Origin: Gammaproteobacteria bacterium
Lineage (GTDB): Bacteria > Pseudomonadota > Gammaproteobacteria > Steroidobacterales > PWYM01
DNA: 36,474 nt
NCBI GenBank assembly: GCA_007693855.1
Contig: RECU01000037.1
Location: forward strand, 1-36,474
Reading direction: 5' to 3'
A program made the translations under genes and the position numbers. Positions within the stretch are counted from its first letter, which is position 1. Every line of letters begins with the position of its first letter. Below are positions 32,257 through 36,474 of the stretch, piece by piece. The notes below the pieces were generated by a model. The model was given only the letters and a program-made list of their open reading frames with translations. It had not been told where the DNA came from and made no database searches.

Positions 32257-33453
32257 ATGCGGATATCGACAGCCCAGGTGTTCTCAGGCGGCATCAGCGC
32301 CATCCAGCGACAGCAGGGTGAACTGGCCAACGTGCAGCGCCAGCTGGCCACCGGCCGGCGCATCCTGTCCCCCTCGGACGATCCCGGCGGCGCGGTGCAG
32401 GCGCTGAAACTGCGCGAGCGCGTGGCCCAGCTCCAGCAGTACGATCGCAATGCGACGCTGGCCACGAATCGCCTGCAGCTGCAGGAAACCGTGCTCACCC
32501 AGATGGGCGAGTCTTTGCAGCGCGTGCGTGAGCTTACCGTGCAGGCGGCCAACGGCGCCCAGACCAATGAATCCCGTGCAGCCATCGCCCGCGAGATCCG
32601 CCAGCTCTCCGAAGGCCTGCTCGACCAGGCGAACACCCGCGATGCCAGCGGCGAATACGTCTTCGCGGGCTATCGCTCGGGCAACCGCCCGTTCGTGCGC
32701 GATGCCAGCGGCGCGGTGGAGTATCTCGGTGACGGCGGCCAGCGCCGCGTGGCGCTCTCGCCGGACCGCACGGTGGCGGTGGGCGACAGCGGCCTGTCCT
32801 GGATGAACATCCCGTTCGGCAATGGCGTGTTCCGCGCCACGCCGGAGGAGACCAATGCCGGGACGGCGCGGGTCAACGTCGCCGAGGTGACCGACCCGAC
32901 CGCCATCGTCGGCACCACGCTGACGCTGACCTTCGACACGCCCGAGAGCTGGACACTCACCGACCCCAGCGGGGCCGCGGTGGCCACCGGCAGCTACACC
33001 CCCGAGGCGGCCATCGAGTACGCCGGCCGGCGCATCGTGCTGAGCGGTACGCCCGAAGCCGGCGACAGCTTCACGCTCGGCCCAGCGGGGGCAGGCTCGC
33101 TGTTCGAGATGGTCGACCGCCTGGCCACCACGCTGGAGACGCCACGCAACACGGCCGCCGGCGGCGCGCTGCGCGACCAGGCCATCACCGCGGCGCTGGA
33201 GGACATGGACCAGGCGCTGGGCCGGGTACTGGAGCTCCGCACCAGCGTCGGCGCACGCCTCAACACCATCGACAGCCAGCTGGCTGTGAACGACGACCAG
33301 AAGCTCCAGCTGCAGACGGCGCTCTCGGAGGTCGAGGATCTCGACTTCGCCGAGGCGATCAGCCGCTTCAATCTCCAGCAGGTTGCGCTGCAGGCGGCGC
33401 AGCAGACGTATGTGCAGTTGGGGCGGTTGAGTTTGTTTGATTATCTGCGGTGA
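32257..33453 (+). CDS. flgL: Hook-filament junction protein FlgL
   Basis: Second junction protein, a flagellin relative. The protein has 398 residues (317 in E. coli), with a larger middle domain. ATG 32257 has GAGGAGG upstream and gives the typical start MRISTAQVFSGGISAIQRQQ. Other family motifs are ATGRRILSPSDDPGGAVQAL near the N terminus and SEVEDLDFAEAISRFNLQQV near the end, followed by ALQAAQQTYVQLGRLSLFDY. It is the last gene of the flgB-L series. Confidence 0.97.
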   Translation: MRISTAQVFSGGISAIQRQQGELANVQRQLATGRRILSPSDDPGGAVQALKLRERVAQLQQYDRNATLATNRLQLQETVLTQMGESLQRVRELTVQAANGAQTNESRAAIAREIRQLSEGLLDQANTRDASGEYVFAGYRSGNRPFVRDASGAVEYLGDGGQRRVALSPDRTVAVGDSGLSWMNIPFGNGVFRATPEETNAGTARVNVAEVTDPTAIVGTTLTLTFDTPESWTLTDPSGAAVATGSYTPEAAIEYAGRRIVLSGTPEAGDSFTLGPAGAGSLFEMVDRLATTLETPRNTAAGGALRDQAITAALEDMDQALGRVLELRTSVGARLNTIDSQLAVNDDQKLQLQTALSEVEDLDFAEAISRFNLQQVALQAAQQTYVQLGRLSLFDYLR

Positions 33454-33493
33454 GCGATCGCTGCCGCGTTGAATTGATTTGGGAGGTCACCCT

Positions 33494-35071
33494 ATGGGAC
33501 AGCCGGCACGCCAGTTGAATGGTGCCAGTCCGCAGGACCGCGTCACGCAGTTGCTAATTAAGGCGCAGGCTGCGTTGGATGGCGGCGACCGGCAAGAGGC
33601 TGCGCGCTGTTTGCAACAGGTGCTCACATTGGAGTCAGAAAATATCGGTGCCCTCAAAGGCCTGATTAACCTGGCGCTGCAGGCGGATATGAAAAATATC
33701 GCCCTGCAGTATGCGGTCCGCCTGTTACAGGTCGCCGGAAACAGCGCGGATGCGTATGAGATAGTTGGCTTAGTTTTCCTCGAACTGGGCCGTCACGAAG
33801 CCGCCGGCGCCGCGCTTCGCGAGGCAATGCGCCTGGAGCCCGACAGGCAGTCGGTTCTCGACAACTACTGCATCGTCCTACAGGCCGAGGGCAAAGATGA
33901 AGAACGGGTCGTCTTTCTGGAGGCCTTGCTGGCCGTAAAGAAGACCAGTCCGCGCCTGTGGTACGCGTACTCGGAGTCTCGCCACTTTGAGCGCGGTGCC
34001 CCTGAGGTGGCCCAGATTCGCCGTTTGCTGAAGAAACCCGGTCTCAAGGACGAGACCCGTGCGCAGCTTCAGTTTGCACTGGGCAAAATGCTGGCGGATG
34101 GAGAGGATTATGACGCGGCCTTCCGGGCATTCGAGGCGGGCAATCGGCTCAAGTGCGAGGCCGAACGGAAATCTGTGGAGGCCTGGCGTGCCGGGTATTG
34201 GCGGAATCGCGCGGCCGCCATCGCGGGCTTTTTCGATGCCGAGCGACTCGCGGAATGGTCATCCGCGGGCGTTGCTCGCCGGGGGTTGACGCTGCTGGTG
34301 GGGCCGCCACGTGCGGGCAAGAGCCTGCTGGAAGGCGGACTCGCCGCACACCCGGCACTGGCGGCGTATGCCGAGCGGACGGTTGTGGATGAACTGCTCA
34401 AGCGGCACGGCGCGCTTGAAGGATACCCGGATGTTCTGGAGTCTCTGCAGTCCGAAGCCTTGGTCGCACTCGGTGTCCGCCTCGATGCTGCCTGGGGAGA
34501 GCGCCCTGAGCAGGCTATTGTCTCGCATCTGATCACGACCCCAGGGAATATCTTTTACGCGGGCCTGATCCTCTCTCTAGAGCCGACCAGCCGACTCGTC
34601 CTGTGCCGGCGCGACCCGTTCCAGAATGCGCTGGCCATCTTTATGAAATGGTTCGCCAAGTCCCATCCATACGCCTGGGCAGTCGACACGATTGCGGAGC
34701 ACATAGCGATCTGCGACGCCCTGGGTGACCACTGGCAGAGACGTTTCCCAGACCGCGTTACTGTTGCCGACTATGACGCGATCCTGGCCGATCCGGACGC
34801 GACGGTGCGCCGCCTGCTCGCGTGGCACGGCCTGGAGTGGGACGCGGCGTGCGCGAATGACAGGGCGGTCGCAGCTCAGCCGGGCGTGGTCGGTTTGGCT
34901 GGGAGCGGCGCACAGCGATCGGCCGTGGATCCGTCGTTCGCGCGGATCTCGGAGATCTATGGCGATCAGAGGCAGGCCTTCGAGAGCGAGTATGTCGCGG
35001 CCTGCCAGCGTGTCGAGCAGTCCTGGGAAGCTGCGGGGCTTTCGCCGCCACAACAGCTCTGTCGCGCATGA
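33494..35071 (+). CDS. TPR-sulfotransferase-like protein, possible flagellin-modifying enzyme
   Basis: Protein of 525 residues in two parts. ATG 33494 lies seven bases after GGAGGT; a TTG five codons upstream is less likely. Residues about 15-240 are helical tetratricopeptide-like repeats (for example AAGAALREAMRLEPDRQSVL). Residues about 264-460 resemble the PAPS-dependent sulfotransferase fold. The 5'-phosphosulfate loop is LLVGPPRAGKSLLEGGLAAH, where the usual RSGTS/T is RAGKS, and GPPRAGKS (270-277) also fits a Walker A. The 3'-phosphate motif is RLVLCRRDPFQNALAIFMKW (367-386), followed by HPYAWAVDTIAEH and a (V)xYD...DPDATVRRLLAWHGLEWD segment as in the family. Base composition is a little less GC-rich than its neighbours. 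Its place between flgL and fliC suggests sulfation or another modification of flagellin; this is inference. Confidence 0.83.
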   Translation: MGQPARQLNGASPQDRVTQLLIKAQAALDGGDRQEAARCLQQVLTLESENIGALKGLINLALQADMKNIALQYAVRLLQVAGNSADAYEIVGLVFLELGRHEAAGAALREAMRLEPDRQSVLDNYCIVLQAEGKDEERVVFLEALLAVKKTSPRLWYAYSESRHFERGAPEVAQIRRLLKKPGLKDETRAQLQFALGKMLADGEDYDAAFRAFEAGNRLKCEAERKSVEAWRAGYWRNRAAAIAGFFDAERLAEWSSAGVARRGLTLLVGPPRAGKSLLEGGLAAHPALAAYAERTVVDELLKRHGALEGYPDVLESLQSEALVALGVRLDAAWGERPEQAIVSHLITTPGNIFYAGLILSLEPTSRLVLCRRDPFQNALAIFMKWFAKSHPYAWAVDTIAEHIAICDALGDHWQRRFPDRVTVADYDAILADPDATVRRLLAWHGLEWDAACANDRAVAAQPGVVGLAGSGAQRSAVDPSFARISEIYGDQRQAFESEYVAACQRVEQSWEAAGLSPPQQLCRA

Positions 35072-35136
35072 CCGTGATGGGTGTCACATTCCGCGCGGGC
35101 CCCTGCAGCCTGGATAATTATTTTTCAGGCCTGCCC

Positions 35137-35163
35137 TAAAGAATAGATCACGTCGGCCGACAA
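35137..35163 (+). promoter_or_regulatory. FliA (sigma-28) promoter of fliC
   Basis: TAAAGAAT, an 11-base spacer and GCCGACAA match the FliA pattern (TAAAG, GCCGA.AA). Transcription would start near 35170, leaving an untranslated leader of about 94 bases before ATG 35264. Confidence 0.87.
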
Positions 35164-35205
35164 CACACCCGCAAGCGGCTCAGTCACGCCGCCTAATGGG
35201 AAGCC

Positions 35206-35221
35206 CCGCCGCAGGCGGCGG
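35206..35221 (+). promoter_or_regulatory. Hairpin in the fliC leader
   Basis: CCGCCGC and GCGGCGG form a 7-base-pair GC stem (2-base loop, or 6 pairs around 4 bases) about 43 bases before the fliC start. An upstream CGCCGCC at 35187-35193 could pair with the same right arm, so two structures are possible. Two GGA motifs follow near the start codon, as in AGGAGTACGGAAATG. Confidence 0.45.
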
Positions 35222-35263
35222 TGAACTGAAAGCAACCTCAAGACAGGTACCAGGAGTACGGAA

Positions 35264-36469
35264 ATGTCACAGGTCATCAATACCAACGTGCTGTCGCTGA
35301 ACGCCCAGCGCAACCTCAGCACCTCGCAGAATGCCCTCGGGATGTCGCTGCAGCGCCTGTCGTCCGGTCTGCGCATCAACAGCGCCAAGGACGACGCGGC
35401 GGGGCTGGCCATCTCGGAGCGCTTTACCACCCAGATCCGCGGTCTCAACGTCGCCGTCCGGAATGCCAACGACGGCATCTCGCTGGCGCAGACCGCCGAG
35501 GGCGCTTTGGCTGAAGTGGGCAACAACCTCCAGCGCATCCGCGAGCTGGCAGTCCAGGCCTCGAATGCGACGAATTCGGCCAGCGACCGGGCTGCGCTGA
35601 ACGCCGAGGCCCAGCAGCTCATCGGTGAAATCACCCGAGTCGCTGAACAGACCGACTTCAATGGCACACGGCTACTCGATGGCAGCTTCAGTGGTGCCAA
35701 TTTCCAGGTTGGTGCAAACGCGGGGCAGCTGATTTCAGTCGGTAGTATTGTAGATGCCCGTGGTGATCAGCTGGGCGGGTCGTTATTCTCAGAAGCAAGC
35801 TTCGTCGTATCTGAGCCTGCTTCTGCCACCTCCGCAGGCGATACGATTTCGCTTGCAGGTCTGGTAATCAATGGGGTCGCGTTCGACGACATTGAAGTTG
35901 TCGCTGAGGCGTCTGCAGCAGCTACTCAACAAACTCAGTTGCAGGAAGCCGTTGTCGCCGCGATCAATTCGCGTTCGGCAGAGACGGGCGTCGTCGCGGC
36001 CGTAGATGCGGGCACGACCCCGACAGAGGGGCAGATCAATCTGACATCAACCCTCGCGACGGGTGTCGGCGGTGAGGATCCCGTGGCCATGACTGTGGAT
36101 GTTGGGGCCGGCGGAACTACTGCGACGATCACTGCGGTGGGTGACCTGGAGTCCTCCTTCGTAAGCAACGTCAACATCTCCACGTTCGATGGCGCTCAGA
36201 GGGCCATTGCCATCGCCGACGCCGCCCTCGGCGAGGTCAACAGCGTCCGTGCCGACATGGGCGCCGTGCAGAACCGCTTCGAGTCGGTGATCGCCAACCT
36301 GCAGACCAGCAGCGAGAACCTCTCGGCGTCGCGCAGCCGCATCCGGGATACGGACTTCGCGTCGGAGACCGCCGCGCTGACCCGTGCCCAGGTGCTGCAG
36401 CAGGCGGGTGTGGCCATGCTGTCGCAGGCCAACGCTGCGCCGCAGAACGTGCTGGCGCTGCTGCGGTAA
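35264..36469 (+). CDS. fliC: Flagellin
   Basis: Filament subunit of 401 residues. The N-terminal D0/D1 part (about 1-170) starts [20 protein letters not shown] and contains [20 protein letters not shown] and [15 protein letters not shown]. The C-terminal part (about 300-401) has [20 protein letters not shown] and ends [20 protein letters not shown] followed by R, as usual. The central part (about 175-300) is variable, rich in Ala, Thr and Val, and less GC-rich than the rest. It is the surface-exposed region where glycans or other groups are added in many bacteria. ATG 35264 is preceded by AGGAG. A FliA promoter lies upstream. Later genes such as fliD and fliS would lie beyond the right window edge. 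Confidence 0.98.
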
Positions 36470-36474
36470 CGCAG

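Follow-up and report, generated by a model that had tools for sequence, protein, structure and literature searches.

The window analysed here is one entire contig of the assembly, 36,474 bases long, which ends just past the flagellin gene fliC. Between flgL and fliC lies a gene for a protein with tetratricopeptide (TPR) repeats and a sulfotransferase fold, which we call ST. It is separated from the end of flgL by 40 bp and from the start of fliC by 192 bp. The remaining window ORFs that were scanned are chemotaxis, flagellar and c-di-GMP genes, one SCO1/SenC-type gene, and several without a match. The features of the locus are as follows.

32257..33453, plus strand: flgL, given for context (ORF call; homologous neighbours in relatives)
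33481..33486, plus strand: GGGAGG, likely ribosome-binding site (read in the sequence)
33494..35071, plus strand: TPR and sulfotransferase-fold protein (ST), 525 aa (ORF call, translation, Pfam)
33530..34231, plus strand: TPR-type helical region, residues 13-246 (Pfam TPR matches; helices of the full-length model)
34280..34963, plus strand: sulfotransferase-fold domain, residues 263-490, approximate (PF13469 at 268-450; domain model)
34301..34324, plus strand: P-loop GPPRAGKS, residues 270-277, Walker-A type, instead of PRxG[TS][TS]
34373..34375, plus strand: Glu294, equivalent of the catalytic Glu of tyrosylprotein sulfotransferases (TPSTs)
34529..34546, plus strand: LITTPG, residues 346-351, instead of the canonical xDKxPx; Thr348 takes the position of the catalytic Lys of TPSTs
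34610..34636, plus strand: 3'-phosphate-site motif, residues 373-381; Arg373 retained, Ser381 replaced by Ala
34901..34918, plus strand: GSGAQR, residues 470-475; Gly470 where TPSTs have their catalytic Ser, Ser471 adjacent, Arg475 retained
35137..35163, plus strand: sigma-28-like promoter TAAA-N15-GCCGACAA, one mismatch, before fliC
35264..36469, plus strand: fliC, presumed client, without tyrosine (ORF call)

The ST gene starts with ATG, and its product matches Sulfotransfer_3 (PF13469; 5.1e-19, residues 268-450, 69.8 bits against a cut-off of 27) as well as TPR_8 (1.3e-07) and further TPR models, bearing out the preliminary description of a 525-residue protein combining TPRs with a sulfotransferase domain between flgL and fliC. 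It is not a chance ORF, since orthologues 41-47% identical to it are found in five other genomes, Sulfotransfer_3 and TPR models are matched in 6/6 members, and dN is 0.053 against a dS of 0.50 for the closest orthologue pair (L035-L065). A pseudogene was ruled out by the open frame and a dN/dS of about 0.11. GC content is 0.69-0.73 across flgE-flgL and drops to 0.61-0.65 across the ST gene and fliC (window positions 33001-36000). The window contig stops 5 bases past fliC (36470-36474) and the contigs of three other orthologue-bearing genomes (G317, G476 and G483) stop within fliC; assembly may have been interrupted at these contig ends by repeated flagellin genes.

Including the window protein, we found six orthologues in two genera belonging to different orders, each encoded directly 5' of fliC. 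A protein search of 97 relatives of the window genome (G000) found family members in 84 and full-length orthologues in only two, the congeners G002 and G003, scoring 476 and 409 bits against 153 for the next match; both retain the gene order flgI-flgJ-flgK-flgL-ST-fliC (L032 and L033). A class-wide sample of 369 genomes added one orthologue (G317, 525 bits against 200 for the next match), and 47 genomes of a second family added two from the same genus as G317 (G476 and G483). The ST gene is directly upstream of fliC in all three genomes of this second genus, where flgL is not adjacent. No orthologue beyond the six was found among the 369 class, 47 second-family and second-order, 296 home-order and 398 phylum genomes; these samples overlap, and in three of the searches no more than 4, 5 and 3 candidates were scored in each genome. 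A scan of genome contigs returned only the G002 and G003 records, and viral contigs gave no match to the orthologue profile.

The distribution of the gene follows that of the flagellar genes in the home genus: it is present in 3/3 genomes with flgL and fliC, and in the congeners G001 and G004 a search for flgL, flagellin and an ST orthologue found none of them. Across the home order we read 30 flgL loci, of which 3 have the ST gene, 3 are at a contig edge, 2 are without flagellin, and 22 have flagellin adjoining flgL. The flgL-flagellin gap measures 166-440 bp in 17 of these 22 (those for which the script found an exact start), which is too short to hold the ST gene. At L093 (G069) and L097 (G096), no flagellin gene lies within 1.5 kb downstream of flgL, unlike at other readable loci of the order. 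In the second genus, three loci without the ST gene (L143, L149 and L156) have, some 0.3-0.6 kb before fliC, a gene that shares 79-85% identity with the Yip1-domain gene of G317; in G317, G476 and G483 this gene lies farther from fliC, at about 1.8-2.2 kb, and the ST gene stands between them. Relative to fliC, the ST gene was thus gained or retained at the same position in both orders. The earlier idea that the protein serves flagellin is supported by this linkage.

The promoter before fliC was named by its likeness to the sigma-28 consensus. The window site was equalled in 0 of 400 shuffles of the ST-fliC gap, and the other five ST-fliC loci have sigma-28-like sites with one or two mismatches (shuffles doing as well, of 400: L032 4, L033 0, L035 4, L064 6, L065 3). 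A sigma-28-like site was also looked for in the flgL-ST gap of the window, and none was found. With a site found only between the ST gene and fliC, the arrangement suggests that in the home genus the ST gene is expressed with flgL, ahead of flagellin. It would probably lie on the flgL transcript, with the protein present before fliC is switched on by its own sigma-28-type promoter.

The neighbouring flagellins limit what could be modified. The window FliC has no tyrosine in 401 residues, that of G002 none in 391, and that of G003 one in 395; among the incomplete flagellins, no tyrosine appears in the residues that could be read (138 for G317, 186 for G483 and 176 for G476). Sulfotyrosine on the window FliC is thereby excluded, and tyrosine sulfation of FliC, one of the modifications first proposed, is not borne out. 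Serine and threonine together number 71, 67 and 74 in the three complete proteins (window, G002 and G003). Freedom from tyrosine is no special mark of these flagellins, because those of two relatives without the ST gene (L088 and L103) are likewise tyrosine-free. Maf-type flagellin modification was rejected on the lack of a PF01973 match in 10/10 genomes, in a search whose control was positive only in four archaea.

By fold and family, the C-terminal domain belongs with the sulfotransferases, so that the original call of a PAPS-type sulfotransferase domain agrees with both the family profile and the fold. A model of the domain (pLDDT 85.8, pTM 0.87) best matches TPST1/2 (Foldseek, 3ap3, 3.8e-8; 5wrj, Z 17.7, rmsd 3.3, 234 residues aligned), and a profile search of solved sequences likewise places TPSTs first (8w5z, 9.6e-22). 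The alignment behind this model included 16 canonical sulfotransferases, and the model is therefore mute on chemistry. All 50 listed matches to it are sulfotransferases or proteins of that fold, and the lack of kinases among these 50 excludes nothing. The full-length model gave no usable geometry, because its P-loop is largely below pLDDT 50 and its listed PDB matches are helical-repeat proteins, mostly TPR. For closer comparison we assembled 72 sequences, the 6 orthologues and 66 other family members from fetched loci, after dropping duplicates and family hits that do not span the domain. In a tree of these sequences the orthologues form a single branch of 2.92 changes per column with support 100/100 (midpoint root; bootstrap not fully settled). 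In one family of the order, sulfotransferase matches lie two or three together over a few kb (L005, L006, L007 and L010, in G056, G012, G047 and G025).

The orthologues differ from the other family members at positions that matter for catalysis and donor binding in TPSTs. The catalytic residues are R78, E99, K158 and S285 in TPST2 and R79, E100, K159 and S286 in TPST1, according to the excerpt of PMC5562738 used here; ST residues were mapped to these numbers by reading one printed profile alignment. The P-loop reads PR[AS]GKS in 6/6 orthologues, within G[PT]PR[AS]GKS, which matches the Walker A pattern GxxxxGK[ST], as against PRxG[TS][TS] in PAPS sulfotransferases. Position 276 is Lys in all six, and in the 66 others it is Thr in 37, Ser in 28 and Lys in 1 (T or S in 65/66). 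At position 348, equivalent to TPST K158, all six have Thr and 63/66 others Lys; at 381, in the 3'-phosphate site, all six have Ala, and the others have Ser (60) or Gly (6); at 470, equivalent to S285, all six have Gly, followed by Ser at 471, and 66/66 others have Ser. Gly270, Arg273, Glu294, Arg373 and Arg475 are retained in 6/6. No acidic residue is present at 347-349, after strand beta-3, where a Walker B acid would be expected, in any of the six; E294 and D/E374 might act as stand-ins for it.

This remodelled site is conserved. The 12-residue windows starting at 270 and 272, which overlap, are the most conserved of the protein, with 10/12 positions invariant against 99/525 overall (p 8e-5 for the P-loop window within the domain), and we conclude that the P-loop is under selection rather than decaying. 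The two lysines exclude each other across the 72 sequences (K348 only in 63, K276 only in 7, both in 0, neither in 2), an exclusivity that comes from a single clade and one sequence outside it. This pattern resembles the relocation of a lysine, out of the DK motif and into the P-loop, where Lys276 may be catalytic. The outside sequence is a non-orthologous TPR-sulfotransferase (L037:784-2727, G259) with the P-loop GMPRTCKT, no DK lysine and Gln for Glu294; this single sequence may be an independent K276-type variant or a pseudo-enzyme. Relatives on viral contigs with a readable loop have Thr or Ser at 276 in 16/16, and at the DK position 15 of them carry Lys and one (L117) Gln; eight further viral ORF lines did not match the loop pattern.

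A PAPS-dependent enzyme needs its donor, and we examined the genomes for APS kinase. In the window genome, a gene near that of a canonical TPR-sulfotransferase codes for a CysN-like protein with a fused APS kinase domain, and PAPS is likely to be available there. These two genes lie with a TonB receptor on contig C75 (L069:7128-11881), and in G001 and G004 an APS kinase match is about 2.4 kb from a sulfotransferase on the same contig. Among the six orthologue-bearing genomes, all drafts, three have a strong APS kinase match (G000, G002 and G476). G317 (99% complete) and G483 (100%) have weak matches just over the cut-off in the genome tally; the proteins concerned belong to AAA_33 (5.1e-34) and the SRP54/FtsY type (6.8e-77), and a scan of the whole proteins gave 19.3 and 20.2 for the APS kinase model against a cut-off of 21.1. 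Once these matches are identified as other families, neither draft contains a recognisable APS kinase, and the single Sulfotransfer_3 match in each is the flagellar ST protein. A search of the 87% complete G003 draft found no APS kinase match and five further Sulfotransfer_3 matches; its assembly is less complete, and its canonical sulfotransferase copy is near the start of a contig. Elsewhere in the second genus, APS kinase is present in each of the genomes with other Sulfotransfer_3 matches (G476, G470 and G477). Sulfotransfer_3 matches are lacking in G482, which has APS kinase, and in G478, whose only APS kinase match is weak. On balance, ST appears to persist where no PAPS source is recognised, as judged from two draft genomes, which favours another donor or none.

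We propose, with a probability of roughly 0.4, that ST is a transferase dedicated to flagellin, docked to it through the TPRs, and that it probably uses a donor other than PAPS. The N-terminal TPR superhelix would serve as a cytoplasmic dock for flagellin, like the TPR half of Caulobacter FlmG; the TPST-fold C-terminal domain would bind a nucleotide donor in its rebuilt pocket; and a small group would be moved to Ser/Thr of FliC, or to something that FliC carries, before export. PAPS is disfavoured by the shift of the lysine out of the DK motif into the P-loop, together with the loss of the serine at the 3'-phosphate site; candidate donors are ATP, which would give a phosphoryl group, and APS, which lacks the 3'-phosphate and would give a sulfuryl group. 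A fuller version of this proposal is possible though doubtful: that a lineage of the TPST/TPR-sulfotransferase family bound to flagellin left PAPS, rebuilding a Walker-A lysine, dropping the 3'-phosphate Ser and shifting its catalytic lysine, and is now an ATP phosphotransferase or an APS-dependent sulfotransferase. The word sulfotransferase, applied to ST, denotes ancestry and not chemistry.

Several observations weigh against a donor other than PAPS and lend themselves to a somewhat unlikely alternative, that ST does sulfate flagellin from PAPS, either on Ser/Thr or on a glycan that the flagellin carries, with Lys276 substituting for the DK lysine and Ser471 for the serine lost at 470. WNK kinases, in which the catalytic lysine is relocated to the glycine-rich loop, offer an analogy for Lys276. 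Fold and family are those of sulfotransferases, Arg273 is retained in 6/6 together with Glu294, Arg373 and Arg475 of the PAPS-type site, and the mutual exclusion of Lys276 and Lys348 would suit a substitution. The absence of an acidic residue at 347-349 makes a Mg-ATP kinase not obvious. APS kinase accompanies the orthologue in three genomes, among them the window genome with its CysN-CysC-type protein; the genome tally puts G317 and G483 just over the cut-off, and these are two drafts only; and G003 combines five other Sulfotransfer_3 matches with no APS kinase match. Against PAPS stand the Ser-to-Ala change at the 3'-phosphate site in 6/6, the lack of a recognisable APS kinase in G317 and G483, where ST is the only Sulfotransfer_3 protein, and a window FliC without tyrosine. 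The PAPS-type sulfotransferase of the preliminary description therefore stands as to fold and family and is doubtful as to chemistry, with the catalytic Lys and Ser and the 3'-site Ser all replaced in 6/6 and two near-complete genomes without a true APS kinase.

ST could also lack catalysis altogether and be a nucleotide-binding relative that serves as chaperone or regulator of flagellin, holding FliC or reporting on it through its TPRs. The replacement of 2/4 TPST-type catalytic residues, the long branch and the position ahead of fliC would fit such a role, which we consider unlikely given that the invariant Glu294 and a P-loop more conserved than any other part of the protein go beyond the needs of a dead scaffold, and that the chaperone FliS is already encoded beside the ST gene in L032. 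It is improbable that the substrate of ST has nothing to do with flagellin and that only expression or descent accounts for the gene's place next to fliC: TPR-sulfotransferases are indeed common at many loci, with matches in 84/97 relatives, but the adjacency to fliC recurs in two orders, whether or not flgL adjoins the gene, which is absent from the two congeners without flagellar genes.

If ST is a flagellin-docked transferase using a donor other than PAPS, it would add to the bacterial flagellin modifications one that differs from glycosylation, and would be a naturally occurring example of a switch of donor in a sulfotransferase fold, with the altered residues already mapped. The lysine-swap pattern would also give a simple rule for spotting family members that are perhaps misannotated as sulfotransferases. 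Flagellin surface chemistry influences motility, phage attachment and host recognition.

Our literature search on flagellin with sulfation or sulfotransferase found no bacterial flagellin sulfation, returning one review and papers mostly on archaellins or Halobacterium. The earlier remark that flagellar sulfation is little described thus fits the bacterial literature searched, but sulfated N-glycans on the archaellins of Halobacterium salinarum have been published, as excerpts of PMC6591318 and PMC11980604 indicate. That system resembles our proposal in placing sulfate on a swimming filament and differs in being archaeal and glycan-borne on an unrelated filament. In Pseudomonas aeruginosa, FliC is reported to be phosphorylated on Ser/Thr, including Thr27, likewise a small anionic group on FliC (excerpt of PMC5049796), and phosphate on a flagellin is therefore not outlandish; that excerpt draws no link to an ST-like protein. 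An 80 Da mass difference was taken there as a sign of FliC phosphorylation. Since sulfate and phosphate both add about 80 Da, the +80 Da mass test put forward as a check would not by itself separate the two.

Among sulfotransferases, TPST1/2 (3ap1, 3ap3, 5wri, 5wrj and 8w5z) share the fold and the equivalents of Arg78 and Glu99 with ST, whereas ST has the Lys158 and Ser285 equivalents replaced, GKS for GTT, a TPR fusion, and a neighbouring flagellin without tyrosine. Bacterial TPR-sulfotransferases (PF13469), such as the paralogue in the same genome (L069:7128-9116), share its architecture and family, but the orthologues stand on a separate branch with four signature positions altered, which rules out an ordinary TPR-sulfotransferase as a full description. 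That paralogue scores 180 bits to PF13469 against 70 for ST, and its gene is near the APS-kinase fusion, whereas the ST gene is beside fliC. A published screen left out TPR proteins with sulfotransferase domains, according to the excerpt of PMC11870540. The closest functional parallel is FlmG of Caulobacter, in which a TPR half binds flagellins and the other half is a transferase (excerpt of PMC7591256). Like ST, FlmG has N-terminal TPRs and a C-terminal transferase domain, and it is dedicated to flagellins; its transferase half is a GT-B glycosyltransferase, whereas that of ST has a sulfotransferase fold. By this analogy, we regard FlmG as the best working model for the ST protein.
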